Shown here one piece after another: positions 26,816 through 64,000 of a stretch of DNA of 64,000 nt (its first letter is position 1; the number at the start of each line of letters is the position of its first letter). The position numbers were made by a program, and so were the translations under genes. Under the pieces are notes generated by a model. It did no database searches, was not told where the DNA came from, and worked only from the letters and a program-made list of their open reading frames with translations. The stretch is from a virus, in IMG/VR virus record IMGVR_UViG_3300023231_000004, positions 111,824 through 175,823 of that record. The stretch is one strand, 5' to 3'.

Positions 26816-26829
26816 AATACGAGAAGTAA

Positions 26830-28149: not shown

Positions 28150-29128
28150 TTACGTTAGAAGAGAACCTAAGAAAAAATTAAATATATTAACGTTTTGTAC
28201 TCACCGTAGATACGAGACAGAGTTGGCCAAGACTGGTCACAACTTCTATGCTGCAAACATTAAGGGTATGGGGGCGGTTGAAGACTATGGACTAGACAAC
28301 TATCACCTTATGCCACTAGACAAGTTCTATCCCTACGATGGGTACGACTTGATCTTGTCACAGAACAGGTTTGGGCAGTTTGATCTAGCCAATCAGATCA
28401 ATCAAAAGCTACAGATCCCCATCATTGCCCTTGAGCACACAACGCCCACAATTGACTTGAGCCAATCCGCTTTGAATCAAATGGGGGCCATGATTGGTGA
28501 TGTTAATATCTTCATTACGCATCATTCAAACTATGTTTGGTCTAGTGTTGGTATTCAGAAAAACAACAATGTGATTCATCACTGTGTTGACTCAGATGTC
28601 TTTAGTCCAAAAACAGAAAGGACGGGCAAATACATCTTAACAGTAGCAAACGACTATAAGGCTAGAGACTATTGCTTAAACTACAAGATGTGGGAAGAGC
28701 TTTACAATACTGAAAAGTACATGATGACTGTTATTGGAAAAAACAGCGATCAAATCAATGACACGTTTGTTAGTGAGGGCAATTCAGAAAGACTGGCGTT
28801 CTATTACAGCGAGTGCCAAGCTTATCTGAACACAACCCTGGACAGCCCAATGCCGATGAGTCTCCTAGAGGCGATGGCTTGTGAGTGTCCAGTTGTCACT
28901 ACTGGCACCTGTGGGATCTCTGAGTTCGTCGAGGACGGCGTTAATGGTTTAATCGCCAATACCTCAGAGGAAGCTTCTAAGGCTCTTGACAGGCTCGCTA
29001 GAGACCCTGACTACGCCAAGAAACTAGGAAAGGCCGCTAGGCAGACAGTTCTTGATAAATGCTCTTCGGACAGATTTGTTCAAGAGTGGAATGAAATCTT
29101 CACCAAAACATACGAGGCAAGTTTATGA
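28133..29128 (+). CDS. GT4-type glycosyltransferase
   Basis: A 331-aa GT-B enzyme. The first domain runs from KLNILTFCTHRRYET through ALEHTTPTIDLS. The second has GKYILTVANDYKARDY and the nucleotide-sugar motif TLDSPMPMSLLEAMACECPVV (E at the end of the E-x7-E region), followed by GISEFVEDGVNGLI. It would use an activated sugar donor; the acceptor is unknown. Overlaps the following gene by ATGA. Confidence 0.82.
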   Translation: MTNVVNYVRREPKKKLNILTFCTHRRYETELAKTGHNFYAANIKGMGAVEDYGLDNYHLMPLDKFYPYDGYDLILSQNRFGQFDLANQINQKLQIPIIALEHTTPTIDLSQSALNQMGAMIGDVNIFITHHSNYVWSSVGIQKNNNVIHHCVDSDVFSPKTERTGKYILTVANDYKARDYCLNYKMWEELYNTEKYMMTVIGKNSDQINDTFVSEGNSERLAFYYSECQAYLNTTLDSPMPMSLLEAMACECPVVTTGTCGISEFVEDGVNGLIANTSEEASKALDRLARDPDYAKKLGKAARQTVLDKCSSDRFVQEWNEIFTKTYEASL

Positions 29129-33569: not shown

Positions 33570-35339
33570 ATGAAACAATACATTGATATGGTAAGTAGGG
33601 TTTTGGAAGACGGCAAGTGGAAGTCTCCAGTCAGAAAAGTCGGTAACACATGGGAGCCAGTAGATGGGGGTATTAGGACTAAAGCTGTACCTAACGTTTT
33701 CTTTTCTCACGAAATGCGGGATGGGTTTCCTTTACTTACGACGAAAAAGATGGCTTGGAAAGCAATCAGAGTCGAACTTGAAGGATTTATCAAAGGGATC
33801 ACAGACAAGCAGTGGTTTCAAGACCGAAACTGTAAGATTTGGTCAGAATGGTGTAACCCCGAGGCGGTAGAGGGGCACCAGTATATGCAGGAATACTCTC
33901 ACGACGACACAATGAGTCATGAAGAATCTAATGCAGAATACAACTCTCGAAAGAAAGCCGCCCAAAAAGAACTTAATTGCCTTGGTCCCATATATGGTGC
34001 GAATTGGATTAATTTTGATGGAGACTATGCTCCAGTTCCACAAATAACAACAGGACTAAATAAGACAATTAAGGTCTCACTGAGTGAAAATTGTCCATTC
34101 GATCTAGTTGGCAAAGAATTCAATGGGACAAATGGGATATACACAGTAGTATCATACGACGGCAAAGACAGGCATTGCAATTGTAGGTTCTCAGTAAAGT
34201 TTCATACTAGTGGATTTGTAAAAGATAATTTGTGTAAATCACAAGTACAAGAAGGGAAAATCTACGATCCATATTATCCATCGGTATGCGGTGTCGCTTG
34301 CATGGGAGAGTATAAAGATGTTGAGATTCCAGATCTTCACTATGAAGAAGATAAGGAATCCACGGTAGAGGCGATAAAAAACCAATGGAGACAAATGATC
34401 CAAAGATGCTATGATAAAAGCAACAAAGATTATAAAAATTATGGTGCTTACGGAATCTATGTTCACAATAACTGGCTAATATTCGAGAACTTTTTAAGAG
34501 ACATTCAAAGAGTAAACGGATGGAAGTTTAAATTAGATAATTGGTCTGGATACCACTTAGACAAAGACATTAATGGACTAGGCTTTTATGGACTTAGGGG
34601 GTGTCAATGGACCACTAGAGAAGACAACGCTAATCATACTAGCCAACAATACTATTTTGACGCTGTAGACCCAAACAACAATACGTTCTTTAACGAGTAT
34701 GGCTTAGCTAGATTCTGTAGAAAATACAATCTAAATGTCAAAACAGTAGAAGCTTCTATAAAGAGCAAAACAAAGACCCATGGTGGATGGTGTTTCCATA
34801 GAAAAGAAAACTTAGATACTAGGCCAAAGATTAAGACTGGCACTAATCAACTAGCCAACATCGTTGAGACTCTTCGCACCAACCCTATGGACAGACGAAT
34901 GGTCTGTTCCGCATGGAACCCCAATCAGATCCACATGATGGCCCTACCACCCTGTCACTATGCTTGGAATGTCACAGTCATCGATAACAAGGTCAATCTC
35001 TTCTGGGCTCAGCGTAGTGCAGATCTGATGTTAGGCGTGCCCTTCAACATCGCTTCTTATGGCTTACTTTTAAGCCTATTGGCCGCAGATGCCGGGTTGG
35101 AAGTGGGCAATCTATCAGGCGTATTTGTTGACTGTCATATCTATGAAAATCAACTAGATGGAGCTATTGAGCAAGTCCAAAGAGAGCCGCAACCCTTGCC
35201 CTCTATTGAATTGGACCCTAATGTTCAAAACTTAATGGCCCCTAATGAGTTTGATATCTTCAACTGGACCCACGACAAGGTGGGACTCGTAGGATACAAC
35301 CCCCTTGACAAGATTGACTTTGGTAAGGTAGCAGTATGA
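33570..35339 (+). CDS. thyA: Thymidylate synthase (ThyA) with in-frame insertion
   Basis: Methylates dUMP to dTMP using methylene-tetrahydrofolate. The 589-aa frame follows GGAGG. ThyA landmarks are DGFPLLTTKK, NCLGPIYGANW, DRRMVCSAWNP, LPPCHYAW with the nucleophilic Cys, GVPFNIASY with the dUMP-selecting Asn, and VDCHIYENQ. Asn, not Asp, in PFNIASY argues for thymidylate synthase, not dCMP hydroxymethylase. Residues about 165-426 are an insertion inside the segment that normally links the GPIYG loop to the DRR helix. Without it the protein is 327 aa. Confidence 0.9.
   Translation: MKQYIDMVSRVLEDGKWKSPVRKVGNTWEPVDGGIRTKAVPNVFFSHEMRDGFPLLTTKKMAWKAIRVELEGFIKGITDKQWFQDRNCKIWSEWCNPEAVEGHQYMQEYSHDDTMSHEESNAEYNSRKKAAQKELNCLGPIYGANWINFDGDYAPVPQITTGLNKTIKVSLSENCPFDLVGKEFNGTNGIYTVVSYDGKDRHCNCRFSVKFHTSGFVKDNLCKSQVQEGKIYDPYYPSVCGVACMGEYKDVEIPDLHYEEDKESTVEAIKNQWRQMIQRCYDKSNKDYKNYGAYGIYVHNNWLIFENFLRDIQRVNGWKFKLDNWSGYHLDKDINGLGFYGLRGCQWTTREDNANHTSQQYYFDAVDPNNNTFFNEYGLARFCRKYNLNVKTVEASIKSKTKTHGGWCFHRKENLDTRPKIKTGTNQLANIVETLRTNPMDRRMVCSAWNPNQIHMMALPPCHYAWNVTVIDNKVNLFWAQRSADLMLGVPFNIASYGLLLSLLAADAGLEVGNLSGVFVDCHIYENQLDGAIEQVQREPQPLPSIELDPNVQNLMAPNEFDIFNWTHDKVGLVGYNPLDKIDFGKVAV
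34062..34847 (+). mobile_element. HNH/AP2-type endonuclease insertion in ThyA
   Basis: About 262 in-frame residues. The N-terminal part (FDLVGKEFNGTNGIYTVV, then CNCRFSVKF) and the C-terminal part (QMIQRCYDKSNKDYKNYG, GIYVHNNWLIFENFL, YHLDKDINGLGFYG, CQWTTREDNANH) match phage HNH-type homing endonucleases of the YGxxGIxV..W family. No intein blocks (Cys1, His-Asn end) are visible. The ends carry an imperfect repeat: QITTGLN before and KIKTGTN after. The boundary is placed by that repeat and is uncertain by a few residues. Confidence 0.7.
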
Positions 35340-47976: not shown

Positions 47977-48540
47977 TTATCCAAACCTTGTTGGTGGTTT
48001 TCCTGCTTCGTCTGTAAAAATCGGGTCTCCGCTACTATCTACGGCATCGTAGTCTACGTCTCTCTCGCTATATCTATTATAGCTATTTGTGGGCGAAAAG
48101 GTAAGAGAATAATCCACCTTAAACGGCACAGGCACTTCTATCGTCGAGAAGAGACTGGTCGCAGGCGGAACCCACCTTGGATAGTGGTGTATGTAAGGAA
48201 AGAATACACCAAGATTTGCATAGTAAGGCTCTTCGCTGTAGGAAATGTCTCTAGGTGGAGAAAGAAAAGAGTCTTTAATACCCTGGACTTCTCCAGAATT
48301 GCCTAGTATCTGTTCATAAGACCCAGAATTTTCAGGATAAGTGTGAAGAACACCCGACTCGTGGGTTTCTGGACTAGGATAGTGTCTATTTATACCAGAA
48401 TAGAACCTAGGCACTTGACCACTAGTGGCGTGAAGATCTATATCTTGACCTCCGCTACCTTGTATGTTTTGATCGTAAAAATTACCTTCACCAGATGCGA
48501 CTACCCATCCGCTTTCAATAGGGCCTTGAAGAATGGTCAT
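47977..48540 (-). CDS. Structural protein, tail-associated
   Basis: A 187-aa, Tyr/Pro/Gly/Ser-rich protein (FYSGINRHYPSPETHESG, FFPYIHHYPRWVPP) with low-complexity character typical of tail-tip components. Its start overlaps the stop of the inserted HNH gene (TAATG) with ribosome site AAAGGTGG. No family. Confidence 0.5.
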   Translation of the reverse strand: MTILQGPIESGWVVASGEGNFYDQNIQGSGGQDIDLHATSGQVPRFYSGINRHYPSPETHESGVLHTYPENSGSYEQILGNSGEVQGIKDSFLSPPRDISYSEEPYYANLGVFFPYIHHYPRWVPPATSLFSTIEVPVPFKVDYSLTFSPTNSYNRYSERDVDYDAVDSSGDPIFTDEAGKPPTRFG

Positions 48541-49076
48541 TATTTTCCACCTTTTCTTAAATTATCTGCGGCCCATAATGGCTGTAAGTTCTTATAGCTG
48601 AAACACTTCCTTTGCTGCTCTGGTTTTGTCAAGTCAAACTGACAGCAGGGCTTAATATGGCCCATGTGCCAATCTCCGTAATTATCCCAAGTCATATCCT
48701 CAGTAAATCGTAATTCTAAGTGCTGTCTTAGCTCTTTCATAGAACATCCTATTAAGACCTTTGTATTGTCTACTTTGGGTAGCCCTTTCAAAGCACGACA
48801 AACCCTAGTTCTTAGGCTATCCTCTATTCTAAACTGAGGACATTCTTTCCTTTTTTTTCTTTTATACTCAACCGTCTTGGATATCCTGGCTTTAGCATTT
48901 TTTGCATAGCTATCTCTGTTTCTCTTGTTTACAAGTTTCCTATCTTGGTCGTGGTACTCTTTAGTGTGCAGACTTCTACAGTCACGACACTGTTTGCGAA
49001 ACTTCTTTGTATCAGCTCGAACTTGAAAAAATTCGTCTGTAGCTGGTTTGTCTGTGTTACATTTAGTACAAATCAT
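48540..49076 (-). CDS. HNH endonuclease inserted in the tail operon
   Basis: A 178-aa protein with N-terminal CTKCNTDKPA and KQCRDCRSL zinc knuckles. The catalytic segment is DWHMGHIKPCCQFD with KNLQPLWAADNLRKGGK, as in phage HNH enzymes. The usual WHxDH appears as WHMGH. It lies between two tail genes with only short overlaps. It is related in layout to the + strand HNH gene at 23370 but differs in its N-terminus. Confidence 0.8.
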   Translation of the reverse strand: MICTKCNTDKPATDEFFQVRADTKKFRKQCRDCRSLHTKEYHDQDRKLVNKRNRDSYAKNAKARISKTVEYKRKKRKECPQFRIEDSLRTRVCRALKGLPKVDNTKVLIGCSMKELRQHLELRFTEDMTWDNYGDWHMGHIKPCCQFDLTKPEQQRKCFSYKNLQPLWAADNLRKGGK

Positions 49077-49078
49077 GA

Positions 49079-50872
49079 TTACTTCGATAATTCATACGTC
49101 CAGCTAATACTAAAAGAATATCTTCCTTCTTTTGGAGTCCAACTTTCAGTCATTGGAGAAACGAACCACTTTCTAACTCCAGGTTCAAACTCTGGACTAA
49201 GCTCTTTAACGAGCTGATTAAGCTGACTTTTTGTTGGCTCAAGTACGCTGGGCTTTTTAAGCAATAAGGAATTACGTCCTGATCCGTATGGAATATCTGT
49301 GTAGTCCATAATTAAATCAATACTAAGATCCCTAGTGTATTCACTTCTACCGCCAATTGCTTGCAGTACTGGACCAGTTGCCCTTCCAATTACAGGGATT
49401 ACGGCAAAAATATCGCCAGGATATGTATCACTTATGTTAATTGTCTCAGTGAGTACTCCAGAGATAATGTTTGTTGGCCTATTGTTGAAGTCTAAGGAGT
49501 ACGTGATACTACCATCGAACTCATTAGTTGCTAAAGCAATGCTTTGAGGCTGTGCATTAAGCTCTACGGCAACTGAATTATTCGCCCTTTTGAAGATATC
49601 AGAGCCAACTCCAAACCTACCGCTGGAACTAACGTCGTAATACTTCGATAGGGCACTCTGGTAGGGCGTCTGAGCGGCTCTGTCGTCCATTCCGCCATAG
49701 AGAGACCCAGAAGGCGTAACGCAGCCTAGGCCCCTAATCTCGCCCTGTATTGAGACATTGACAAATGGGTCGTCAATCGACGTGGAGACCGACATGTTGT
49801 AGTTCTCATAGGCCTTACCACTAGCAAGAACCCAGTCTTCTGTTACTGAGTATGTTCCATCGGTAATAGAGATACTCTCTGTTCTTTTATGGTCAAATCC
49901 TTCATATGCTTCAACTAGATCAAGAAGGCCACTACCAAATCTACCCATAACATTAGGATAGCCAGAGGTTAACGGCTCATCTTGAAGTCTAAACTGAACA
50001 TAGTCTCTAGCTTGTTCCCATGCGTGTCTTTTCTCTACGCCCTCTGTTCCATTTCTATCTAAAGAAGTCGGAGCCCAATAGTCTTTACCAGTAGCAGAAA
50101 TACTTCTACTAATTCTATAGCTCTTTGTCAAATTGGCAGACTCACCAAGGCCATCTTCGGCCTCTAAAGACCAATTGTCTGAATATGTGTCAATGAAGCG
50201 ACCAGAAGCTTCCATGATCTCTGAATCGGTCATGCCTCCAGAAGCTACAACCATGCCCTCAAGATACAAAGGGTTGCCATCAAGGTCAACTTTGAGGTCT
50301 TTGTCGTATAGAACGTCTGTCTCTAGCGTGATCGTGTATTCACATCGATCAACATAGATGCCGTCTGTAAAATCACAGCTAACAAATCTAGGGTAACAAA
50401 TAATAGAAGGCTCATCAGTGTGAATAGCACTGATCTCTAGCCTTTGGCCGTCTTTAGAAAAGAGAGCCCTAATTACTTTCTGCTTAAACAGAATAGCATC
50501 AACCGCAGATTCATATGGAACGTACTGTCTATCTGGCCTATTGTCTGTAACCGCACCTGTAACGATGTCTACAGAATACGAATGACTCTGCCTCGTGTCA
50601 AAAGATAGATATGGGCCAGCATTGGCTGTTGCAGGAACATAAGGTCCAGCACCTACAGAGTCATGGTAGTCAAATAGTCCATTGTTTCTAGTATCCCTAG
50701 CTAGAGGGAAACCAAGGTCAGCAAGAATGTGCCCCTTTAGAGTGATCTGATAGGTAGAACTATTGGTTCCGTCTTTTGTCCTATTTGGACTAGGAGACAC
50801 TGAAACAATAGGTGCAGGCCTAAGTACGCAGTTCTGATTGGGGTCGTTAAGATATCTTACTAGAATCGGCAT
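49079..50872 (-). CDS. Tail/baseplate-type structural protein
   Basis: A 597-aa protein with ribosome site AGAGG. The N-terminal part is beta-rich (IVSVSPSPNRTKDG, STYQITLKGHILAD). A motif YPRFVSCDFTDGIYVDRCEYTITLETDVLY reads as adjacent strands. The C-terminus is PKEGRYSFSISWTYELSK. The pattern resembles phage tail-completion or baseplate proteins. It ends three bases before the HNH gene start. Role inferred from position. Confidence 0.55.
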   Translation of the reverse strand: MPILVRYLNDPNQNCVLRPAPIVSVSPSPNRTKDGTNSSTYQITLKGHILADLGFPLARDTRNNGLFDYHDSVGAGPYVPATANAGPYLSFDTRQSHSYSVDIVTGAVTDNRPDRQYVPYESAVDAILFKQKVIRALFSKDGQRLEISAIHTDEPSIICYPRFVSCDFTDGIYVDRCEYTITLETDVLYDKDLKVDLDGNPLYLEGMVVASGGMTDSEIMEASGRFIDTYSDNWSLEAEDGLGESANLTKSYRISRSISATGKDYWAPTSLDRNGTEGVEKRHAWEQARDYVQFRLQDEPLTSGYPNVMGRFGSGLLDLVEAYEGFDHKRTESISITDGTYSVTEDWVLASGKAYENYNMSVSTSIDDPFVNVSIQGEIRGLGCVTPSGSLYGGMDDRAAQTPYQSALSKYYDVSSSGRFGVGSDIFKRANNSVAVELNAQPQSIALATNEFDGSITYSLDFNNRPTNIISGVLTETINISDTYPGDIFAVIPVIGRATGPVLQAIGGRSEYTRDLSIDLIMDYTDIPYGSGRNSLLLKKPSVLEPTKSQLNQLVKELSPEFEPGVRKWFVSPMTESWTPKEGRYSFSISWTYELSK

Positions 50873-53800
50873 TATTTTCCTCTAACTCTAAGGTCCAAAT
50901 TAGTATCAAGAACTCCGTATCCAGATCCTCCGTAAAGAATCAATGAATTGTCTGTCAAAGTTGGGGCATCACCCTTGACTAACAGGCTGACTCCAGACTC
51001 GGCGGAGTAGGCGGAATAAGTGAACAGGTCTAGGTTATTATACACTATGTCAGACTCTTGGCCAAGCATAAACAAATTGACGCTTCCGCTAAGGTCAAAC
51101 GGGTCGGTGTAAGAAGTTAAAGGCATAAACTCCTCGACTGGAGTACCATGAACAATTTCTCCTTCAATCCTTTCAATGTATGGTCTTTGTACTATAAAGC
51201 TTAATTCTCTAGGATCTTGACCAGAAGCTTCTAAGAAGATTTGCCCCTTAGCGTCTGAATAAATCAAACCCTTGGCAATCACTTCTTCGTTGGTGTTAAA
51301 TGCTCCTAATTGATCTAATTCAAGGTTTACTTCGTCTAGCTCTCTGTTTAGTCCAAAAATACTAGCCTTGAGCCATGATTCTTCACTAAAAGTAGCTGGA
51401 GGCTGATTTCTAAGCATAGCATCGTATGTGTAAGAAGCACCACCGCCACTCTCTTGAGAGTAAGATCCATCTAGTCCACTTGTGTGTCTATGAGATCCTA
51501 CGCTCATTGAGTAGTCACTGTCTCTTCTAGCAAATCTTGAGATTGATACAGAGTTTCCAAAGCTAGAGGTATCTTCACCAGAAGCATACCCGTGAGGCAC
51601 AAGCTTTTCTGCGAAAGTCCAGTCTTTGGCCCTATTAGACCAATCATATAGTCTATTTTCAAAGGTAAAGATAGCACCAGTGTTGTTAGAAGCTGGAGTC
51701 TCACCAGGGCCTAGGCTTGAAACAGAACGTGTACCAATGTCAAACGCAGCACTAAATTCTTTTCTTACGAAAGCCCCCTTGGTGTATTCAACTGAATTTC
51801 CAAAGTCATGACCTGGAGCTGAGATAGCCGCAAAGTCGCCGTCCATCGAAACGCTCCATCCAAATCTATCTGAGTTATCGAAGCTTCTTATCTCTTCTGG
51901 CTTTAACTTCTTAGAGACGTCCCAGCCAAACTGTATAGTCTTTTCAAAGACGTAAGCAGATCCACCACCTCCCTCTATACCTAATTCAGAAACGCCAGAA
52001 ATTGTCTGTAAATCGCCAGTGTAGGCTGAGTATGGAGAACCAACAACAAGTTTGCTATTGTGAATATCAAGACTGTGACCAAATAGGTCGCCTGGATATG
52101 AACCAGATTGCAAATCATAATCTAAAAAGTCTTTTCCGGTGTCTCTTAGTAAATCAGAAAATGGATTACCGCTCATAGGAGCGTCGACATATCCGTTGTA
52201 TGAAAATCTAGGACTAGAAAAACCTTGAACAGTAGAATCAAATTCTCCTAAAACAGCCTTTTCAGCCTCTTCAAATTCATCAATTTTCTCATGAACATTC
52301 TGAACCACTTTGCCCTGCTGGTAATCTTTTTCGTGGCCAAACTCTTCTAGCGAACCACCAGCAAAACCTCCAAACTTAGTCCCCATATTGGACTGATTAA
52401 GAGAATAAATAGCTGGACTACCTTTCTCTGGAGAAACAATCTTTTCGGTATATTTATACCCAAGATTAAGTTCTGTCTTGTTGCCCACCAGAGTTGTCTC
52501 AGTTGTCGTCAAACTATTCAGGAATGAGTTAACTCTGGCGAGCATTGTATTATTAGGAACGGTTGGCACTCCACTTACAAGCGAAGGCTCTCCAGTTCCG
52601 GTCTCTTCTAGGCAACCATTAACGATTGTTGAATCAGAGATAAGTAAAATTTTAGATCTTGAGTTTCCAGTAGCACCGTCTGAGAAGTGCTCTGGCTCTT
52701 CTGCAATAACAACTGGACCGTCAGCCACAAGCTTGCCACCACAAGAAATATCTGTCAAGCAGTATCTAGTGTTGTCGTTCATGATAGGCTTAATTGTAGC
52801 AGGAAGCAGAACGGCCTTAGGAGGAACATACTCTTGCGTGACTTCTTCCGTAAATCCAATTTCTCTTGTTTCACATCTTTCCGAAGTAAAGTATTCTGTC
52901 ACTTCGTTGATAGGAAGTGGGGCTCCAGAAACAGAAAGGAGTTTATAGGTTGTGGGCACTTGATTTCCGTTAACCTTGATCTTGTCTCTATTTCCAGTGA
53001 AGAACAAGCTAAGGTAGTCTTTGTCGCTAGAAACTTGAACGTCTAAATAGCCTTCTGACACAGCAGTACCAAAAGAGGGCGATTCTAGCTTAATAGCTCT
53101 AGTAGATGCGTAGTCTACAATTTTTAGATCTCTATTTTCGTCATAGTCTCTAATGGGAGTGCCAGTCCTAGCAATAAGTGTAGCCGGATTACCGGCCCTT
53201 GTTTCAGGCTTAATCTTGTGGAGAATATCTCCTGCATACAGATCGATTTCTTGTTTCTCTTCTGGTCTATCTGCAATCCAATTGTAGAAGATCCTATATC
53301 CAGAGCCAGGAGTAGCCGGAAACTGAACCTTAGCAACACCAGTATTCATACTCCAAATATCTTTGTACTCTTCTGTGACTTGAAGTCTTTCATCTTTCAC
53401 AGTTCCGTCTTGCCATACAACAGCTTTTCCTCCAGATCTTAGATCGACAGGGCAGTAAGTCGCGTTAAGCGTGAAGTTCTCTACAGAGAAGCTTCCGTCA
53501 CAACTAGCAATAGACTGATCTTTGTCGTCCAGTAGAACTTCTAGCTTCTTTCTTGAGACGTAGATTCTTTCCCTTGTTGTTGGGAACTTGTTTGCACCTG
53601 GAAGATACCAAGGCTTCATAGTAAGTCCTAAGCTTTCGCAAAGCCTATAAGCCTTAGAAGATTGTTCTTCTTGTTCTTCGTATGTGATAACAAGCTTCTT
53701 CTTTCCAAGTGCTAACCAATTTTTAATCTTAGTAATGTCTTGGGCGGCAGGCTCTCCGTCTGCATTCGCGATCCAAAGGACATCCTTAGAAGCAGGAATA

Positions 53801-56800
53801 ATGGGGCCATCCCAGTTCTCTACTAAATTATGACCCATTGCATCAAAGACCTTGCCTAATAACGAACCTTCTCCGGCACTAGCAAACGAGCTTCTAGCCG
53901 TCCATCCTCCAAGTTGAATGATAAATGCGTTATCGCAGTTTGCATTTCTAACAAGATTATCGTAGAATGAAATGTTTTCGTCATTATCGGTAGTTAGGGC
54001 GACTTGGTTTTCAGTGGCAGTACCAGCAATTAAGTAGACCTCAGAACCAGAAATTGATTCTTTAGCTACATAGTTGACAGGATCTCCAACTTGGAATCTT
54101 TCAGTCAATTCTTCTCTTGTAACTTGAATGTCTAGCGTTCCGTCTGCTTGTAGCAGTGCGCCCCTTTCATTGAACGACTCGGGATTATAAAATCGTCCTT
54201 CGCTTTGATTGCTTCCAATATTAGTGTCTAGGAAGTTTTGATTACCACTACCTTGCATCCAATAAAAAGCCAACTCATCTACGTGGTTGTCGTCAAACAA
54301 GTAGTAAGTATTAGAAGTATTAGACTGAAAACAAGTGGTTTCAGTTATAGGTGTTATTGTAATAATTTCAGGCTTAGCTGGAATAATTCCGTAGTTTTCT
54401 GTAAACTCAGCAGCAACCATAAGAGGTCTAGGCTGCTCGCCCTGACCACCCAGACTAAGATCTTTAGCGATGTCAACAGCATCCTCAGGTTTTACAGGTG
54501 GAAGTCCATTGCTATAAAATTCAAAGGGTAGATTTCTCTCCCAGTATGTGTACGGATCTTTGGCTTCTGGGTCGGGTGGATCTTTAATCTCTCTCTCAAT
54601 CCATCTAGCTCTCAAGTCTCCGTTATGGGCAATGGGAGGTCCACACTTAGGATTGTAAAAAGAACAGTTTCCATACCTTTTATTATTTACAATGCTATGA
54701 TCTTTGCCCCAGTTGTCTTCTTTGAAGATTGCGTTTGGAACGTGAAGCCGAATATCGGCAACGCCGTATCCAAACAAGTGATTTTCAATTTCTACGTTGC
54801 TACTGTTACTACCCTGAGGCTTGTAAGACTTGATAACATTAGGGGCGATCTCACCAGAACAAGAGGTATTAGCAATAAGGGCCTCTCTTTCGTTTCTAGC
54901 TGGATGTAGTCTCATTCGAGAATCTAGTTTCTCAAGAATCTTGTTAATGATTTCGTTAGACTTTGCGTATGCTCCGTTCTTTTCCCACACAGGGTCATCC
55001 CCTACTAAAACGAGCCTTCTATCGCCAAGGCTCATCCATCGCTTAATCTCTTCAATGACTTCGTCGTTTGCAGCGTCAATTTCAGGCGTGATAATGAAAA
55101 TAGATCCAACATCCTTAGGAATTGAAACATCACCAAAGTCAGTCTTGTCGTAGTGTTCGTTTTGACTAATGGCAGTACTATTTGTCTCATTACCTTCGTC
55201 GTCGTATCCTCCTGTGTTGTTTATGGTATTACTCAAGTTTCCAAATTTGTTGTACTCAAGCACATTTCTCTCAGAGATGGGCTCAAAGTCTTGACCTTTC
55301 TCAAACATTCTAACGGCACCAGCATTTACATTAGAGGCCCACAGGCTTCTAGGGAACTCTGGATCTCCACTTTCAGATAGATACTCTCCATCCTTATGTA
55401 AGAAGTAGAATGCGGCATCTTCGTATTGACCAATGCTGTCGGTAGGGGCACCAAAAGCCACAGTCTGACCATCCTCGCTAACAGCAGTGCTGTAACCAAG
55501 TCTAGGGTTGGGGGCATTCTGACGCATTGTCTTTGTGAATGTGCCTTCTAGTCCACGCTCAATATCATCAAGTCCATACTTGAAAACCTTTCTGTATTCT
55601 TGAATGTGGTTATTTCTCCAGAAATCATAGTCTGATCTAGCTTTGAACTTATCTGTTCTGCTTAGATCTGCATAGATAGACATTCCAGCTTCTCTGACTC
55701 CAGATGCAACCTCAAGCTCCTGATACTCGGCAAGTCTATTGTAGTACTGTCCAAGAGTAACAGTTGCGTCATTTCTGAACTTTAACCATCTTCCAATGTT
55801 GTCATATAGCCTGTTTCTCTCTCCGTCTGCAAATTGATACATCGAGCACGACTCTCTAATAAAAGGAGAACCTATAGAGAAAACAGAGGCGTCGTCACTG
55901 ATAGAAACGGCGTGGCCAAATCTTGCTGGTAGTTTGTCAGGTGCAGAAACGGGAGATTTGATCTCTTGCATTAAGCTCCAATCGCCAAACTCTTTTTCAA
56001 AAACATAAACTCTACCGCCACTTTCTGGGCTTAGGTTAAAGTCAATAGCTTGCTCATCAGCGAACTCAAGGCCAATACCAGAAGTAATGAGGGTGTGATG
56101 TCCACCATCGTATAGGTTTCCAGTGTCGAGTAAGTTATTGACAAGATTGTTGGAGATCTTGAACCAGTCTTCACCCTGGTCTTCGTCTGTTGGAGTGTAC
56201 TCATAAATGTATCCGCTTGCAGGATTGTCATAGAAATCTCTCACTCCACTTTGGAATGAGTAGTTTTTGTAGAAGTTGACGAACTGATCGATAGCTGGCT
56301 CAACTACCGGTCTACCAAGAGACCTACTATTGTCAACGTAGAAGCCAACAATAGGAGGAATATTATTGTTGACCTGTGTTTCATCATAAGGGAAAGCCTC
56401 AAAGAAGCTACTCTTAATTCCACTAAGCATCTCAGCGGTTACCGCTGGGTCTTCTGGCTTGCTAGGGATTGCCCTAGGGATAGTTCCTACAATCAGATTT
56501 TCAATTCCAGGCTCGGTGTATACACTTTGGTCAAAGATTCCTGTTGGAATGCAACTGATGATCTTTAAGTTAATGTTTACCGCTGGCTCTGCAAAGTATC
56601 TGTAAAGGAAATTGTGGATGTCAATATTGTCCATTATCTCTTTAATTTGGTCTTGATCGTATGAGAACTCATTATTGAACACCATGATAGCGACATTAAC
56701 GCCAGATGTTTCAATCTCTTCAAAGCCTCTAGTGTCCCACTTAGCACCAGGGCCACCCGCTACAATGACTTCTCTATCTTTAGTTACAGCGATATCAAAC

Positions 56801-59800
56801 GAGTGACCAAGCTCTCGACCCTCTTGTCCAATGTTCCACTGCTTCTCTGGGATCGTACCGATACCTGGGAACGAAATCTTTCCACCCCTGTCGTAGTACC
56901 AGTCACCAATAAACCCAGAAGGAAGTGTAAGCTTAGTCTCAAGATCCCAAGGCTTCTTTTCTCCACCTTCTTCTTCTTGTCTTCTATAGAGGAAGATAGC
57001 ACCGGCCTCTTTGTAGATACCCAAGTCGTGACCTGGAGCACCAACTCCCATGATCTCACCCTTAACCTTCACGCACTTCCCGTAAAGATCGCCCTCGTGT
57101 CTTTCTTCTGCAACATGCTTGAATCCTTCAAAGTCAATATCTCCAAGCGTACCGTATTCCCACTCTTCAAACTTAGGAGGAAGGGCGATAGATTTCTTGT
57201 CTCCGGTCTTGCCGACAACAGTAATCGTATAAGGAGTGTTGGGGAATAGTCCCTGATATTTTCTGGAGCCGTAGAAGTGTCCGTTGTATGTACCAGCGTC
57301 CTCATTGCCGAAGGCGAATTCGCCTGAGTTTCGATATGTCGTACTAGGTCTAAGGATACCGCCGTCAACGCACTCTTTGTTGGCCCAATTTGTATCGTGA
57401 GTAATGATGTCTTGCTCAACGCATGGGTTGTCATCTACAGCAGAGCAATCGCCCCAACAAATAGTTTGCGTACCTCTAATAAGATCAATAGAAGGAACAG
57501 TCAATAGCCCCTCGTCAATCTCTTCGGTGTTTCGTCCAACGTTTCTATTGTTCCAAGAAACGTAAGAATCTCCGCTGCCGTTTAAGTAAACCGCTGGGAA
57601 GCACTTGTTATACAAGTTCATGAATGAGTCTGTTTTCAACCCTTCGTTCTCTCTTCCAAACAGCACTAGGTTCATACTATCTCCAAACTCCGTAGGGGAG
57701 TCTGTGAATAGCGGCATAGCGTTATCGGCAAATACATCTTGGAAGCCACGAGAAGCAACCATCTTCATAGGCAAGACGCCACTTAGGGCGCCCTGGCTAC
57801 TAGATAAAGAGCTATAGGCAGTCATAGAAATACTTCTTGAAAGATCTGCATTAGTGGCACTACCAAACATGTGGAGAGGCAGGAACATTTCGGAAGGGAG
57901 AACTGGGTCGTCATTAAACGAAACCAAGTTCATTTCCGCTTCAACGCGATAGTTCCCACTTGTCGCAATAGGTAGTCCACTGTTTTCTACTGTCTCTTTG
58001 TTTACTAAGTGCATTGACATTTGAGAAGTCTCAAAGTAAGCACCAGAAGTAGAAAGATTAACAGCACCAAGGTCTACTGGAGTTGGAACTCCAGACATGT
58101 ATAGATTCATGCTTTCTATTTCGAGACCAATTGGGTCAACATACAGAGGCATTGGTGAGTACGAGTAAGACTCTCCACTAGTGAATACATTCAAAGCCTG
58201 ATCTACTAACGTGGGCTTAATGAAAGCGTTCTCCATTCTCAAATTAGCTGAGTGGATATTCAAGTTAACTTCAAACTCGTCGCCAGACGGAGTCACAAGG
58301 TCATACTGTAAGAACATCTCGTCGGCGTCTTTAGAAAAGTACCTGTGATTGAATTCGCTTAGCCTCTTCTCTTCTGGGAATACGGACCACTTCTCGCTTT
58401 CATCAAGCAGAGACTCTAGGTCAAACGTGCTCTCCAGCTTGGACCACCTATTGTTAGGATTCAAGTAGTGGGATTTTCTATTAACAAGACCCCAATTGTG
58501 AGTACCAATCTCTTCGTCTTCTTGGTTTCTAGTGTAAACAGATACGATAAGCTTAGGGCCAACGTTTCCATCTGGCCACACAATCTCTCCAGACTGTGCG
58601 TAACTGATAATACTGTCAACTACAATAGACTTCTCGTCGAAGTGATAGCCACGAGGAAGAGCTTTGGCAATTCTCGGAGAGGCTGAATAGAAATTAGGAA
58701 GAGAGTCTGTTAGGTTAATCCTAAGGAAGTCATTCTCTGCCTGAGTGTGGTAACTGACGGAAGAGTCAATATCAGATGGGAAGGGCAAATCTGTCTTGTT
58801 AGCATAGGGCACTCCGTCCCCAACTAGTCTAAAGTTGATTGCGTCTTTTCCGATACGCTGCGTGAACATGTCGAATTCGTGAGGGGTGAACTGTTTCCAG
58901 TTAAATGCCCCTAGGTTCCAATCTAATGTGTCTCCGTCGATATAGCTCGGCAAGACGTAGGAGTCGTCACTCCATACGCCATTAGAGTCAGTCCAATGAA
59001 CTGATTGTGCGTTTAAGAAACTCTGTACTGTTTGCTGCTTGTAAAGAGGGTTGGGCGAAACTTCGTCGCCATCGACTAGGTTTACGCCAGAGCCATTACC
59101 AGCAGAGATTCCAATTTCATGATAAAGATTATTAGCTGGAGCTACAAGAATTTGACCAGGAGTATCAACCCTTGAGAAACTAGGAATTTGAGACTTCTCG
59201 ATATCCTTGTTTTCATACTTAACATAGAGCTTAGCTTTTCCTGAACCTGCGTCGTTATATGTGAACACGACAGAAGCGGGGAAGACCGCATCGGGCTGGG
59301 CACTAGAGCTTACAGATCCGCCACCAGAAACGGTAGCAGAGAACTGATTAGTGTCATGATTGAATGCAATAGAAACTCCATCTTTGAGCAATACGGTAGG
59401 AGTGCCGGTTGCGTTTTCATCTGGAGAGAACCTCAAGTAAAAGGCAAATCCCTCTGAGAAGTCCTGTGCAGGAAATGAGATGTTATTAGCAAGTCTAGTA
59501 ACGCTATCGTAAGCGTCTACGGTCTTGCCGTTCCAATCAATAGACTGATATGTATTGCTTGTATTTACTAAAGTAGGACTCTTGAATCTAAAGCCTACAT
59601 TTTGCTCTGCTGAGATTCCAACAGAAGTACCAACAGTCGTACTTAGGTCGTTCATTGGTCTTGAGAATACAGAGTCCCCACTAATGTTAGTGAAGTCAAA
59701 GTGCCCCAGTAAGAACGGAGAGTCTAATTGATGGCTCTCAAATCCAAAGTCGAAAGCATTCGTATCGAATGGGCCGCTTGTAATCCCCTCAACACCACGC

Positions 59801-61821
59801 CATCTTCTAGCGTAGTTGCTCTTTAGGGTGGCGGGACTCTCATATCCGTGTGGAACGCTTTCAATTAAGGACGTAGCCTCCCTGTTCACTGGCAAGTCAT
59901 TGACAGTTCTAGTCGTTGGGAAGAATTTTCCTTCTTTTCTATCTAGCTCAATTCTTGAAATACCACCAGCAAGGGTTGTAAATTGAAGAGCGTTAGAAGG
60001 AGTATATTTTACACATAGTTCGGCACTAGAAATACTAGCACCGCTAGGTAGAGGATAAATATCGAGGAAAAGCTTCTCGAAGAACGAAGCACTCGATCTA
60101 TCTTGAAGCCCAAGCTTGAACTCGTCTACTTCTATTACCAGTGGAACTTCGTAATCTCTATAGCTAGTCGAGTCAACAATAGCTGGAGATATCTTATAGT
60201 GATCCGAACCATGACCCTGAACCGTTTCATATTCATAGTATTCATCCTGCTCGGAGAGTGATTCTGATGAGATTCCTTCGTTGTCTAAATTGTTCCATCC
60301 CGACTCAACTGGTACAACTCCGGTTCCAGTTGTGTTTTGTAAGAATCCACCAACCTGAGAAGTTACGTTCAATAGGTTGTCATCGCTCCACCCGACTACG
60401 TCAAGGGCATAGTCTCTTGATCCAACTTCTTTCTTAGCTCTAATCTTTAAGTAGATCTCGTCTACTACAAAGAAATCATCGCTAGCTTTTTCCTTAAATG
60501 CCCTACCGACTTCAAACTCTTTATGATCAAAACCTAATCCAAAAGCGCCACCCTTGAATCCAAATACAAATTCTTGAGGCTTGTGTTCAAATAATAGGTT
60601 TAGCTTTCCAGAGTCTTGTACACTAGAGCTTGTAAGGGTTATGTTAGAATAGTCATACGGCTTACTTAAATCATTAGCCAAAACCCTACCTTGGGGCTCA
60701 GTAAGATTAGAATATCCGTATGTGTTTTCCCAAATGGTCTGAACCTCTGGCCAAACGTCGGTAGAGAAGTTGTGGGGCAAAACTTTACTAGGTTCAATTT
60801 TCCTAGTTAGTCTGTCTCCTTTTTCTCTAACACCAACGGAAACTGGCAAGAAGTTCTCATGTCTGAATCCAAAGTCACCACTGTTGCAAATTTCAACGGC
60901 AGAGATTCTAATTTCAGGACTGTAAAGGGTAGAGCATCGCTCAAATCCCTGATCGAATCCATCGTCAAAGCCGTCAGCGTCCTCAATGCAAGAAGCTTGC
61001 GTCTTGAAACTAAGGGTGCAGCCAGATGATGGGATTTTTGGGTACTCAGCAGACCATGTATACTGGGCACCATTGTTAATTCTAGGTTTGGAAGAGTACA
61101 TAGTCGGGTAGTTGTCACCAACAAACTCGATATCTTCATACTCGCAGATTAGATTGTCTTCTTCGTCTCTAAATTCAATCTCGTAGATCTTTTGCTTAGA
61201 GTTAAAAGCCTGTGCGTTAAATACAATATAACTCTCTGTGAATGACACAGATGGTAGGCTCATATTAGTCGTGTATTTTGTATGATCTGAGTCACCAGAA
61301 GACTTGATGAAGTCTTGGTAAGAAAACAGGGAATCGGACTGCTTTTCGTGCAAATGGTAGTCACCCGCGTAGACGCCCTCATTGACTAGCTCGTAGAGGT
61401 TATCCAAAACAGGTGTGTCGCTAGACATTCCGATTAGATTGAGCTTAGAAACGTCCTGAGTGGGGTACAGCTTGTCATAGCAGTCGTTGGGTCTGAAATC
61501 GCCAGCAAACTTAGCAACCTTAGCCTTTATTTCAGCTTGGGCGACCAGTTCTTTGCTCAGATTGAAGATTTGACTTAGGTGAGGTCTTAGCTTAGCCTTG
61601 CTGGTGAGAGCAGACTTGGCCGCAAGCCTAATCGACAATGCAGCATCAACCTTAGCAGAACCCTTAATAGTAGGGGTTAAACTAGGTAGGTTGGTGTTTG
61701 CAGGTTTAATAATAGCTACGGCTTTAAGTGTAGCTTTATTCTTTGACCTTATACTTAGATGGGCCTTAATCTTAGACCCAGGAGACTTTTTAGTCTTGAT
61801 TGGCTGTAGACAGCAATTCAT
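50872..61821 (-). CDS. Giant (3,649 aa) tail adhesin-like protein with FG-GAP repeats
   Basis: Ribosome site AGAGG. By eye, seven FG-GAP-type repeats occur near residues 1578, 1670, 1966, 2106, 3243, 3316 and 3416 (for example RFGHAVSISDDAS, RLGYSTAVSEDGQTVAFGAP, RFGWSVSMDGDF), several preceded by AYVFEK-type strands. A MIDAS-like DNSRS starts at Asp1830, between repeats 2 and 3. Around residues 700-880 a LamG-like region is seen (FSEGFAFYLRFSPDE). Two GATase-like Rossmann segments follow repeat 4 (IKRWMSLGDRRLVLVGDD and IKNWLALGKKKLVI). Short strands of the form x-L-x-L-x-x-G repeat throughout. It is probably a host-contact protein. Confidence 0.7.
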   Translation of the reverse strand: MNCCLQPIKTKKSPGSKIKAHLSIRSKNKATLKAVAIIKPANTNLPSLTPTIKGSAKVDAALSIRLAAKSALTSKAKLRPHLSQIFNLSKELVAQAEIKAKVAKFAGDFRPNDCYDKLYPTQDVSKLNLIGMSSDTPVLDNLYELVNEGVYAGDYHLHEKQSDSLFSYQDFIKSSGDSDHTKYTTNMSLPSVSFTESYIVFNAQAFNSKQKIYEIEFRDEEDNLICEYEDIEFVGDNYPTMYSSKPRINNGAQYTWSAEYPKIPSSGCTLSFKTQASCIEDADGFDDGFDQGFERCSTLYSPEIRISAVEICNSGDFGFRHENFLPVSVGVREKGDRLTRKIEPSKVLPHNFSTDVWPEVQTIWENTYGYSNLTEPQGRVLANDLSKPYDYSNITLTSSSVQDSGKLNLLFEHKPQEFVFGFKGGAFGLGFDHKEFEVGRAFKEKASDDFFVVDEIYLKIRAKKEVGSRDYALDVVGWSDDNLLNVTSQVGGFLQNTTGTGVVPVESGWNNLDNEGISSESLSEQDEYYEYETVQGHGSDHYKISPAIVDSTSYRDYEVPLVIEVDEFKLGLQDRSSASFFEKLFLDIYPLPSGASISSAELCVKYTPSNALQFTTLAGGISRIELDRKEGKFFPTTRTVNDLPVNREATSLIESVPHGYESPATLKSNYARRWRGVEGITSGPFDTNAFDFGFESHQLDSPFLLGHFDFTNISGDSVFSRPMNDLSTTVGTSVGISAEQNVGFRFKSPTLVNTSNTYQSIDWNGKTVDAYDSVTRLANNISFPAQDFSEGFAFYLRFSPDENATGTPTVLLKDGVSIAFNHDTNQFSATVSGGGSVSSSAQPDAVFPASVVFTYNDAGSGKAKLYVKYENKDIEKSQIPSFSRVDTPGQILVAPANNLYHEIGISAGNGSGVNLVDGDEVSPNPLYKQQTVQSFLNAQSVHWTDSNGVWSDDSYVLPSYIDGDTLDWNLGAFNWKQFTPHEFDMFTQRIGKDAINFRLVGDGVPYANKTDLPFPSDIDSSVSYHTQAENDFLRINLTDSLPNFYSASPRIAKALPRGYHFDEKSIVVDSIISYAQSGEIVWPDGNVGPKLIVSVYTRNQEDEEIGTHNWGLVNRKSHYLNPNNRWSKLESTFDLESLLDESEKWSVFPEEKRLSEFNHRYFSKDADEMFLQYDLVTPSGDEFEVNLNIHSANLRMENAFIKPTLVDQALNVFTSGESYSYSPMPLYVDPIGLEIESMNLYMSGVPTPVDLGAVNLSTSGAYFETSQMSMHLVNKETVENSGLPIATSGNYRVEAEMNLVSFNDDPVLPSEMFLPLHMFGSATNADLSRSISMTAYSSLSSSQGALSGVLPMKMVASRGFQDVFADNAMPLFTDSPTEFGDSMNLVLFGRENEGLKTDSFMNLYNKCFPAVYLNGSGDSYVSWNNRNVGRNTEEIDEGLLTVPSIDLIRGTQTICWGDCSAVDDNPCVEQDIITHDTNWANKECVDGGILRPSTTYRNSGEFAFGNEDAGTYNGHFYGSRKYQGLFPNTPYTITVVGKTGDKKSIALPPKFEEWEYGTLGDIDFEGFKHVAEERHEGDLYGKCVKVKGEIMGVGAPGHDLGIYKEAGAIFLYRRQEEEGGEKKPWDLETKLTLPSGFIGDWYYDRGGKISFPGIGTIPEKQWNIGQEGRELGHSFDIAVTKDREVIVAGGPGAKWDTRGFEEIETSGVNVAIMVFNNEFSYDQDQIKEIMDNIDIHNFLYRYFAEPAVNINLKIISCIPTGIFDQSVYTEPGIENLIVGTIPRAIPSKPEDPAVTAEMLSGIKSSFFEAFPYDETQVNNNIPPIVGFYVDNSRSLGRPVVEPAIDQFVNFYKNYSFQSGVRDFYDNPASGYIYEYTPTDEDQGEDWFKISNNLVNNLLDTGNLYDGGHHTLITSGIGLEFADEQAIDFNLSPESGGRVYVFEKEFGDWSLMQEIKSPVSAPDKLPARFGHAVSISDDASVFSIGSPFIRESCSMYQFADGERNRLYDNIGRWLKFRNDATVTLGQYYNRLAEYQELEVASGVREAGMSIYADLSRTDKFKARSDYDFWRNNHIQEYRKVFKYGLDDIERGLEGTFTKTMRQNAPNPRLGYSTAVSEDGQTVAFGAPTDSIGQYEDAAFYFLHKDGEYLSESGDPEFPRSLWASNVNAGAVRMFEKGQDFEPISERNVLEYNKFGNLSNTINNTGGYDDEGNETNSTAISQNEHYDKTDFGDVSIPKDVGSIFIITPEIDAANDEVIEEIKRWMSLGDRRLVLVGDDPVWEKNGAYAKSNEIINKILEKLDSRMRLHPARNEREALIANTSCSGEIAPNVIKSYKPQGSNSSNVEIENHLFGYGVADIRLHVPNAIFKEDNWGKDHSIVNNKRYGNCSFYNPKCGPPIAHNGDLRARWIEREIKDPPDPEAKDPYTYWERNLPFEFYSNGLPPVKPEDAVDIAKDLSLGGQGEQPRPLMVAAEFTENYGIIPAKPEIITITPITETTCFQSNTSNTYYLFDDNHVDELAFYWMQGSGNQNFLDTNIGSNQSEGRFYNPESFNERGALLQADGTLDIQVTREELTERFQVGDPVNYVAKESISGSEVYLIAGTATENQVALTTDNDENISFYDNLVRNANCDNAFIIQLGGWTARSSFASAGEGSLLGKVFDAMGHNLVENWDGPIIPASKDVLWIANADGEPAAQDITKIKNWLALGKKKLVITYEEQEEQSSKAYRLCESLGLTMKPWYLPGANKFPTTRERIYVSRKKLEVLLDDKDQSIASCDGSFSVENFTLNATYCPVDLRSGGKAVVWQDGTVKDERLQVTEEYKDIWSMNTGVAKVQFPATPGSGYRIFYNWIADRPEEKQEIDLYAGDILHKIKPETRAGNPATLIARTGTPIRDYDENRDLKIVDYASTRAIKLESPSFGTAVSEGYLDVQVSSDKDYLSLFFTGNRDKIKVNGNQVPTTYKLLSVSGAPLPINEVTEYFTSERCETREIGFTEEVTQEYVPPKAVLLPATIKPIMNDNTRYCLTDISCGGKLVADGPVVIAEEPEHFSDGATGNSRSKILLISDSTIVNGCLEETGTGEPSLVSGVPTVPNNTMLARVNSFLNSLTTTETTLVGNKTELNLGYKYTEKIVSPEKGSPAIYSLNQSNMGTKFGGFAGGSLEEFGHEKDYQQGKVVQNVHEKIDEFEEAEKAVLGEFDSTVQGFSSPRFSYNGYVDAPMSGNPFSDLLRDTGKDFLDYDLQSGSYPGDLFGHSLDIHNSKLVVGSPYSAYTGDLQTISGVSELGIEGGGGSAYVFEKTIQFGWDVSKKLKPEEIRSFDNSDRFGWSVSMDGDFAAISAPGHDFGNSVEYTKGAFVRKEFSAAFDIGTRSVSSLGPGETPASNNTGAIFTFENRLYDWSNRAKDWTFAEKLVPHGYASGEDTSSFGNSVSISRFARRDSDYSMSVGSHRHTSGLDGSYSQESGGGASYTYDAMLRNQPPATFSEESWLKASIFGLNRELDEVNLELDQLGAFNTNEEVIAKGLIYSDAKGQIFLEASGQDPRELSFIVQRPYIERIEGEIVHGTPVEEFMPLTSYTDPFDLSGSVNLFMLGQESDIVYNNLDLFTYSAYSAESGVSLLVKGDAPTLTDNSLILYGGSGYGVLDTNLDLRVRGK

Positions 61822-61867: not shown

Positions 61868-64000
61868 CTAGAAAGCACTATCGTTCCTAGCGGCGATTTG
61901 ATTCCTAACTTCGTCGGCAACTGCATTTCTAGCAGCCTTGGAAACATAATCTAATAAATCTGGGCCAGTAACATTAAGAGTAACAGTCATAGGGTCAACT
62001 TTAACATGAATTTGCGAGCTAGCAAGCTTCTCTACAGCAGCAGATAACTTTTGAGTAGCCTCTAAGAAGATATTAAAGTTCTTCACGTCGGCTTCCGAAA
62101 AGTAAGATCTCGAAGGACTAGATTCGCTCTCGGTTGTTGCCGCTCCAGTGGGAACACCATCTGCAACAGGGGTACTGGTAGAAGTGGCCGTAGAAACCGC
62201 TTCTGCTTGTTGTCTTGGGGTGTTTGTAGATCCAACAAGATTAAGATACGCATCTAAAGCGCTAGAAGCTCCATTGTCCACAAATTTCAAGCCTGGAGAT
62301 ACAACGTTAGAAATCGATTCGTAGGAACTGCTTGCTAGCCTATCTAAAGATCCCATAAACTTACTAGAAGACAGTTTAGTACTATCAACATCGGGAGAAG
62401 ACCTTGTAACAGAAGCCAAGCTAACACCATTCAAGTAAACGGACTGCGATTGAACACTTAAATCTCTAACAGAATCCAATGGATCAACACCTGCTTCTGG
62501 AACAGTCTTTCCTTCTGTTGTAGAAGTTACACTGTCACTATCTGCTTTTTGCTTAGGAGTAGGCTTGGAGTCTGGAACGCTCTTCTCTTTTGCCTTTTCT
62601 TTAGCAGCTTGTTCCGCAGCTATCTTAGCCTCAGTTTCAGGAGTAGTTAGAGTTTTTCTAACGTCATCTTGGAACCTTTCTCCAATTCTTCTAGTTACCT
62701 CTTCTCCACCTCTAACAGCAGTTCGAGATACTCTATTTTGTGCTCCAGATAATTGCTTTAAGTTTCCACCAAGTCCTCTTGTTTCTGCGTTGATTCTTTG
62801 CTCTTGTGGGCTATTTCCACCTACTGACCTAGCAGCAGATCTAGCTTCCTCTGCGTCAAACCCTCTCATTTTTAGTCCAAAAGTTCTAAGGTTTTCTTGA
62901 AGAGAACCAATATCTTGCCCATAAAGACTGGTTACGCCAGCCCCTTTTTGAGACTGTACGTCATCTAGGGCCTCTCCGATAGCACTAGCACCAAAGAGTC
63001 CAATAAGTCTGTCGTCTCCACTAGCAGCCGCAGCGGTAGCACCCACAGCAGATTGCTTCTTAAAGAAGTCTGCAATGTCGCCCTTAATTAAACTGTCGAT
63101 AGAGTCTTTTTCAAGCTTGTTCTTTCTTCCGATAAGTTCTAATTCGTCTTGCTTGGCTTTCACTGTGTCTCTAATAGTAGAAGTCTGTTGTTGCATAGCC
63201 TTGTTAAGATCATTGATGGTATCTTGCTGCTCTGCTAATCCTGATGGATCTCCGTCAAACTTACCACTACTAACGTCAGACTGTGCCTTATTAAGAGCGT
63301 TTTCAATCTCAGAGATATTCTTAGAGAAATCTTGTGGTCCAGAAATCTCTGCAACACCAGCCTCTTTGTTTAATAGGTTCTGCCTTTGGATAGCAACGTC
63401 TGTATCAGACTTAGCCTTTGGACCTCCAGCACTCTCAATAAGCTTGTCCGCCTCTTGATTTAAGTCTATTCCAGAAAGTCTAACATTAACTAGTTCATTC
63501 TCAAGTTCAATTTGCTTTTGCAATCTTTGAAGCTTGAATGCGTCAAGCTTCTGAAGGGCGGCACTAAAGGCTTCAAGAGTTTTAGTACTAGCCTTCAATA
63601 GAGGTTGAAGCTGTTCCATGGTCTTGCGTCTAGCTTCTTCAAGTTTAGCCGGATCGACATCCCCACCAGCGTTACCAGCTTCGGCAATGATGTTAGACCT
63701 GAACAACTTTTTCATCTGCTTACCAAGAGTCGAATCTTCTTTTCCACTCTCTGGATCGAATCCTGTAGCGGCGTTGACGATAGCCGAGAACTTACTAGCA
63801 GCATCACTAGCCTTTTCATCAGGGCCTAGACCTGTAACTTTAAGATTAGCAAAGTCTTGACTAACCTTATCAAAGAGCGTGTTAGACTCTTGTTGGAATT
63901 TAGCTTCTTTAATTACTTGCTTAGCTAGTTGGCTGTCATCTGACTTCTTAATACCAAATCTTTTCAGACCACTGTTAACATTCTCAGTAATAGCAGAGTT
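61868..64000 (-). CDS. Tape-measure-like protein, N-terminus outside window
   Basis: The frame is open to the window edge at 64000 (710 residues visible); the ATG at 63715 is internal. The visible part is first helical and coiled-coil rich (KLEEARRKTMEQLQ, LQRLQKQIELENEL), then Ser/Thr/Pro-rich linkers (DSVTSTTEGKTV). It ends with VKVDPMTVTLNVTGPDLLD, the kind of C-terminal strand pair seen in tail tape-measure proteins. Position at the start of the tail gene run fits. The call is by pattern and position, not by a diagnostic motif. Confidence 0.6.
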   Translation of the reverse strand, partial: NSAITENVNSGLKRFGIKKSDDSQLAKQVIKEAKFQQESNTLFDKVSQDFANLKVTGLGPDEKASDAASKFSAIVNAATGFDPESGKEDSTLGKQMKKLFRSNIIAEAGNAGGDVDPAKLEEARRKTMEQLQPLLKASTKTLEAFSAALQKLDAFKLQRLQKQIELENELVNVRLSGIDLNQEADKLIESAGGPKAKSDTDVAIQRQNLLNKEAGVAEISGPQDFSKNISEIENALNKAQSDVSSGKFDGDPSGLAEQQDTINDLNKAMQQQTSTIRDTVKAKQDELELIGRKNKLEKDSIDSLIKGDIADFFKKQSAVGATAAAASGDDRLIGLFGASAIGEALDDVQSQKGAGVTSLYGQDIGSLQENLRTFGLKMRGFDAEEARSAARSVGGNSPQEQRINAETRGLGGNLKQLSGAQNRVSRTAVRGGEEVTRRIGERFQDDVRKTLTTPETEAKIAAEQAAKEKAKEKSVPDSKPTPKQKADSDSVTSTTEGKTVPEAGVDPLDSVRDLSVQSQSVYLNGVSLASVTRSSPDVDSTKLSSSKFMGSLDRLASSSYESISNVVSPGLKFVDNGASSALDAYLNLVGSTNTPRQQAEAVSTATSTSTPVADGVPTGAATTESESSPSRSYFSEADVKNFNIFLEATQKLSAAVEKLASSQIHVKVDPMTVTLNVTGPDLLDYVSKAARNAVADEVRNQIAARNDSAF

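Follow-up and report, generated by a model that had tools for sequence, protein, structure and literature searches.

The locus described here raises the question of what a set of integrin-like repeats is doing in a giant phage protein, and of how far that protein is laid out like the head of an integrin alpha chain. The window, by which we mean the whole stretch of DNA analysed (64,000 nucleotides), makes up the final 64 kb of a virus record 175,823 bases long (IMGVR_UViG_3300023231_000004), and it contains two adjoining reading frames on the same strand:

50872-61821, minus strand: ORF of the giant, probable tail-tip protein, 3,649 aa read without a stop; its relatives are mostly 3,600 to 5,600 aa long
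61868-64000, minus strand: C-terminal part of a tape measure protein, truncated where the contig ends; the gene lies immediately upstream of the giant ORF

The 3,649-aa ORF reported in a preliminary description of this DNA is real, and the name "phage tail protein" given to it there gains support from the adjoining tape measure gene. The upstream gene product shares 97.8% identity over 456 residues with the C-terminal part of a 2,328-aa protein of the relative L001, for which PHROG gives a match to tape measure families (1.7e-26). The giant ORF thus lies directly downstream of a tape measure gene, in the position of a tail-tip gene, and for this reason of gene order its product is probably a tail-tip protein. 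In the relatives L001 and L002, the giant gene and two others, of ~595 aa and ~1,600 aa, stand in the same order. An Endonuclease VII-like gene (phrog_1035, 2.3e-14) also lies among the structural genes of the window, at 48540-49076, and L002 carries a 271-aa ORF at the same place.

Successive scans of IMG/VR returned 2, 12, 20, and then 67 loci, and a genome-contig scan added three contigs, found in MAGs that carry the labels SAR202 and Verrucomicrobiales; we do not trust these labels as hosts, since the contigs may be phage DNA in bins. With identical regions removed, 62 relatives and the window made up an alignment of 63 rows with a median pairwise identity of 40%. Among 50,697 phage records, no convincing relative of the giant protein was found, the FG-GAP similarity of phage Phosso aside (see below), and a whole-protein sequence search of phage records and the PDB returned nothing. 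The literature searched on FG-GAP in phage tails gave nothing of relevance; the single vWA/MIDAS paper, on a halovirus, deals with an accessory gene. In Pfam, the whole 3,649-aa protein matched FG-GAP_2 (PF14312; E 9.1e-14, 51.8 bits against a curated cut-off of 23) and no other family, and the FG-GAP_2 match recurred in all 24 family proteins.

The cores of seven FG-GAP repeats lie near residues 1580, 1671, 1968, 2108, 3247, 3320, and 3421, and the repeats occupy the following positions:

56914-57102, minus strand: FG-GAP repeat 1 (residues 1574-1636)
56725-56829, minus strand: FG-GAP repeat 2, first half (residues 1665-1699)
55948-56025, minus strand: FG-GAP repeat 2, second half (residues 1933-1958), placed by a profile match to repeat 5 and two model strands
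55573-55944, minus strand: FG-GAP repeat 3 with a helical insert (residues 1960-2083)
55252-55518, minus strand: FG-GAP repeat 4 (residues 2102-2190), where model confidence is partly low
51886-52104, minus strand: FG-GAP repeat 5 (residues 3240-3312)
51583-51885, minus strand: FG-GAP repeat 6 (residues 3313-3413)
51412-51582, minus strand: FG-GAP repeat 7 (residues 3414-3470), with its outer strand absent from the model

A family HMM, trained on these same repeats, located exactly seven of them in the window protein, with no sign of an eighth, and recovered the full set in 24 of 24 family proteins, the window included. Independent support comes from an all-against-all profile comparison of the family alignments, in which repeats 1, 3, 5, 6, and 7 paired mutually at 94 to 98% probability, repeat 2 matched these five at 81 to 94%, and repeat 4 matched repeats 3 (95%) and 6 (93%), while 120 comparisons with control segments from the same protein stayed at or below 3.4%. 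The count of seven, made by eye in the preliminary description, was therefore right and lies beyond chance. When each repeat was left out of HMM training in turn, repeats 3, 5, 6, and 7 were recovered in 19 to 24 of the 24 proteins, repeat 1 in 12, repeat 2 in 7, and repeat 4 in 1. Repeat 4 is the weakest of the set, and the case for it thus comes mainly from the profile comparison.

Do these repeats form one propeller? Repeats 1-4 (residues 1545-2350, 24 sequences, mean pLDDT 67.2) and repeats 5-7 (residues 2985-3480, mean pLDDT 50.5) were modelled separately with AlphaFold. The likeness to integrin alpha held in both halves, whose best structural matches are integrin alpha headpieces: in Foldseek, the model of repeats 1-4 matched integrin alphaX chains best (1.6e-6 and 1.7e-6), and the top seven PDB matches of repeats 5-7 were all integrin alpha chains (best E 9.4e-5), with low global TM-scores against the PDB for both half-models. 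An insertion of ~1,050 residues splits the blades into four and three, which add up to the integrin number, and neither half makes a complete propeller. Moreover, blade 7 has only three strands in its model and a conserved stretch precedes blade 1, a pattern that a velcro closure would produce:

57103-57168, minus strand: conserved stretch ahead of repeat 1 (residues 1552-1573), proposed missing outer strand of blade 7

We propose, from the sequence pattern and the three-stranded blade 7 of the model, that residues 1552-1573 supply this outer strand, and that the seven repeats probably close into one seven-bladed propeller of the integrin-alpha type. It is unlikely that they instead form separate or open groups of four and three blades; such an arrangement would agree with the ~1,050 residues that set the two groups apart and with the limited confidence of both models, but neither four nor three blades is usual for a self-standing propeller, and together they make seven in every one of the 24 family proteins.

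The preliminary description had placed a MIDAS-like DxSxS motif between repeats 2 and 3, exactly at the site of the I domain of integrins. The motif belongs to a domain that lies elsewhere, inside repeat 2:

56026-56724, minus strand: alpha/beta domain in repeat 2, possibly a permuted vWA (residues 1700-1932), delimited by AlphaFold secondary structure, mostly at pLDDT 70-92, and by conservation
56320-56334, minus strand: MIDAS-like DNSRS (residues 1830-1834), with [DE]x[ST]xS in 62 of 63 sequences

Ahead of the insert, the model has strands 1674-1679 and 1684-1690; behind it, strands 1937-1944 and 1947-1955. The second half of repeat 2, GGRVYVFEKEFGDWSLMQEI (residues 1935-1954), sits C-terminal to the insert and matches repeat 5 in the profile comparison at 79% in one direction and 44% in the other. 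Thus, by profile comparison and model together, the insert interrupts repeat 2 and is looped out between its strands 2 and 3, that is, in the beta2-beta3 loop inside blade 2. In I-domain integrins, the I domain stands between blades 2 and 3, on the same face as the phage insert but in a different loop. We also weighed whether strand 1706-1715 might be strand 3 of blade 2, a reading that would move the insert nearer to the integrin position, and rejected this: a conserved Asp follows that strand directly, then a long helix and more strands, and the post-insert GGRVYVF makes a better strand 3.

The motif D.S.S occurs seven times in the 3,649-aa protein; a DxSxS by itself is therefore at chance level and carries no meaning alone. 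The site described at first, at Asp1830, is present, and what distinguishes it is that among the D.S.S sites it alone is conserved as a set. Across the 63 sequences, position 1830 is Asp in 47 and Glu in 16, Ser1834 is near-invariant, position 1717 is Asp in 56 (Asn in the window), and position 1900 is Thr or Ser in 52 (Thr1900 in the window); Pro1822, Gly1826, Phe1847, and Gly1859 are conserved at least as strongly as the motif. The order of the candidate ligands 1717, 1830, and 1900 is that of a vWA domain only after circular permutation. A co-occurrence of Asn1717 with Ile1900, examined as a sign of metal-site coupling, was discarded since it comes mostly from one clade.

As for the fold, a vWA domain had been suggested around residues 1700-1950. 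An alpha/beta domain is there, an alternation of strands and helices in beta-alpha-beta fashion, but no vWA sequence homology was detected: Pfam gave no vWA match in any of 24 family members, genome-level searches with PF00092 and PF13519 gave none at the insert locus, and profile comparison of the insert with vWA gave no similarity above controls. The DxSxS of the model sits at a strand end and is followed by a helix, yet the strand that it follows is a later one (1824-1829) and not the first (1706-1715), a strand order that would suit vWA only if circularly permuted. The N-terminal half of the insert aligned best to the TDG strand of vWA and the C-terminal half to its DxSxS strand, non-significantly and at the level of controls. 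In the Foldseek search with repeats 1-4, the alphaX chain 5es4_A (1,080 residues) matched at 1.6e-6 over 561 columns, compared with E 0.11 over 178 columns for 5es4_G (883 residues). Judging from its length, 5es4_G probably lacks an ordered I domain; hence, the I domain probably contributes to the 5es4_A match. The flavodoxin, SurE, and macro folds also matched the model containing the insert, though weakly. A tblastn search of plasmids with the human integrin alphaM I domain returned nothing.

A metal-dependent propeller had been suggested as well. Bacterial propellers have a single calcium site in each repeat and integrins have three or four, and Ca-binding DxDxDG loops are expected in blades 5-7, or once per repeat in bacterial forms (PMC3192720). 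The window protein has no DxDxDG loop, and the repeat cores of the 24 family proteins contain only six in all; a metal-dependent propeller is therefore unsupported.

How, then, should the insert be read? A true integrin-type layout, in which the propeller depends on metal and a canonical vWA/I domain stands between its blades 2 and 3, would account for the DxSxS at a strand end with a helix behind it and for the longer match of 5es4_A than of the shorter 5es4_G. We nevertheless regard it as very improbable: the motif is off the first strand of the insert, the insert breaks repeat 2, Pfam, the locus searches, and the profiles all failed to detect vWA, the window repeats lack Ca-binding loops, and 16 of the 63 sequences carry Glu at position 1830. 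A second reading is a circularly permuted vWA that projects from the top face of the propeller, with a MIDAS made up of D1717, [DE]x[ST]xS, and T1900. Such a domain would explain the conservation of all three candidate ligands (56, 62, and 52 of 63) in the cyclic order of vWA, the half-by-half alignments to the TDG and DxSxS strands, and, again, the contrast between the two alphaX chains. It stays rather doubtful, as those alignments do not rise above controls, the window itself carries Asn at 1717, a change from Asp to Glu in the first ligand is uncommon among MIDAS sites, a cyclic order comes out right by chance half of the time, and the apparent coupling between 1717 and 1900 reflects mainly one clade.

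There is about an even chance that the insert is another Rossmann-like alpha/beta domain, in which the DxSxS-like motif would serve as a structural loop and hold no metal. The near-invariant Ser1834 and the conserved D/E and S/T at a strand tip look like a site, and so does the conserved Asp that ends another strand, which suggests more than a constraint of the fold. On the other hand, the beta-alpha-beta alternation and the weak flavodoxin, SurE, and macro matches would suit such a domain, conservation at the Pro, Gly, and Phe positions around the motif equals or exceeds that of the motif itself, and the motif tolerates both D/E and S/T.

The large domains announced between repeats 4 and 5 are present. 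The ~1,050 residues that separate these repeats hold tandem DUF4350/GldG-type (GATase1-like) domains:

54862-55110, minus strand: DUF4350-like alpha/beta domain D1 (residues 2238-2320), identified by Pfam in relatives
53587-53934, minus strand: second copy, D2 (residues 2630-2745), by profile match to D1
52492-52674, minus strand: segment D3, RSKILLISDST... (residues 3050-3110), family-conserved and likened by eye to the last GldG-type strand

D1 and D2 are homologous (profile probability 95.3%, P 2.2e-8). With Pfam matches accepted up to an E of 1, DUF4350 was found in 14 of 20 family members (best 1.5e-7), and ABC_transp_aux in three of the 20 (best 5.1e-5); the window's own DUF4350 copy is weak (E 0.11, below cut-off). 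In the phage family, these domains are nested within an FG-GAP protein. To our knowledge, integrins have nothing comparable between blades 4 and 5.

Set beside the alpha heads of alphaX and alphaM, the phage protein shares seven FG-GAP-type repeats and a DxSxS-like alpha/beta domain looped out at blade 2, but it differs in that this domain sits inside blade 2 and not between blades 2 and 3, in its strand order, which is not that of vWA, in the missing Ca loops of the window, and in the ~1,050 additional residues between blades 4 and 5. Neither is there a significant sequence match to integrin alpha: the profile A5 searched against PDB sequences found only integrin alpha-6 (E 0.75) and an unrelated match (0.59). 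The bacterial seven-bladed integrin-type propellers and FG-GAP_2 proteins belong to the same repeat family and likewise have seven repeats; theirs are sequential with one Ca site each, whereas the phage repeats span 1,900 residues and those of the window have no Ca sites (PMC3192720). Among phages, repeats 5-7 found only Sinorhizobium phage Phosso, at E 0.9 (5e-3 with the relative L086). The protein concerned, XYS97267.1 of this jumbo phage (3,692 aa, annotated as hypothetical; L117:7901-18979, record 57900-68978), is likewise a giant FG-GAP_2-type protein, similar repeat by repeat, but its more than 30 repeat matches run in long, largely uninterrupted series and its gene neighbors differ within the stretch read. 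As no annotated tail gene stands beside it in that stretch, FG-GAP repeats alone do not prove a tail-tip role.

Altogether, we favor, with moderate confidence, a giant tail-tip protein with a single seven-bladed propeller, an insert in blade 2, and DUF4350/GldG-type domains between blades 4 and 5. We propose that this protein, whose gene in an uncultured family of tailed phages comes right behind that for the tape measure, would be located at the tail tip. There its four and three FG-GAP_2-type blades would close as one integrin-alpha-type propeller, with the MIDAS-like alpha/beta domain looped out of blade 2, where it separates strands 2 and 3, and the tandem DUF4350/GldG-type domains emerging between blades 4 and 5. 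The propeller would likely display these domains for host recognition and attachment, and any use of metal would be conjectural. Most likely, then, the protein works as an adhesion platform at the tail tip, on the plan of an integrin alpha head. The bolder version seems unlikely to us: an integrin-alpha-like head on the phage tail tip, used for host binding, that arose independently of animal integrins as one seven-bladed propeller, with a permuted metal-binding vWA projecting from blade 2 and GATase1-like domains between blades 4 and 5.

If the favored model is true, it would describe a phage adhesion head on the integrin alpha plan, in which a seven-bladed propeller serves as the platform for looped-out binding domains. 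The conserved family, with at least 62 non-identical relatives and no convincing counterpart in cultured phages among the records searched, would represent a type of tail-tip protein so far unrecognised. Only with confirmation by a structure would the DxSxS-like domain add a new metal-dependent geometry of adhesion.

Several other features of the genome deserve mention. Rfam and tRNA scans of the 64-kb window were empty. A separate vWA-like protein is encoded at G000:C1:92418-92855 (L040:12418-12855), with DRSGSM and MTDGGEN motifs and a Pfam VWA match at E 9.7e-4, below cut-off. Two ORFs at 16635-17816 and 21326-23323 of the window, ~3.5 kb apart, match different parts of the DNA polymerase family phrog_405 and are possibly a split or interrupted polymerase, with no Rfam intron match for the pair. 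A thymidylate synthase ORF (33570-35339) contains an internal HNH endonuclease match (residues 205-422), possibly an intein or a fused homing endonuclease. Finally, three adjoining genes at 24110-29128 match phage glycosyltransferase families (phrog_2170).
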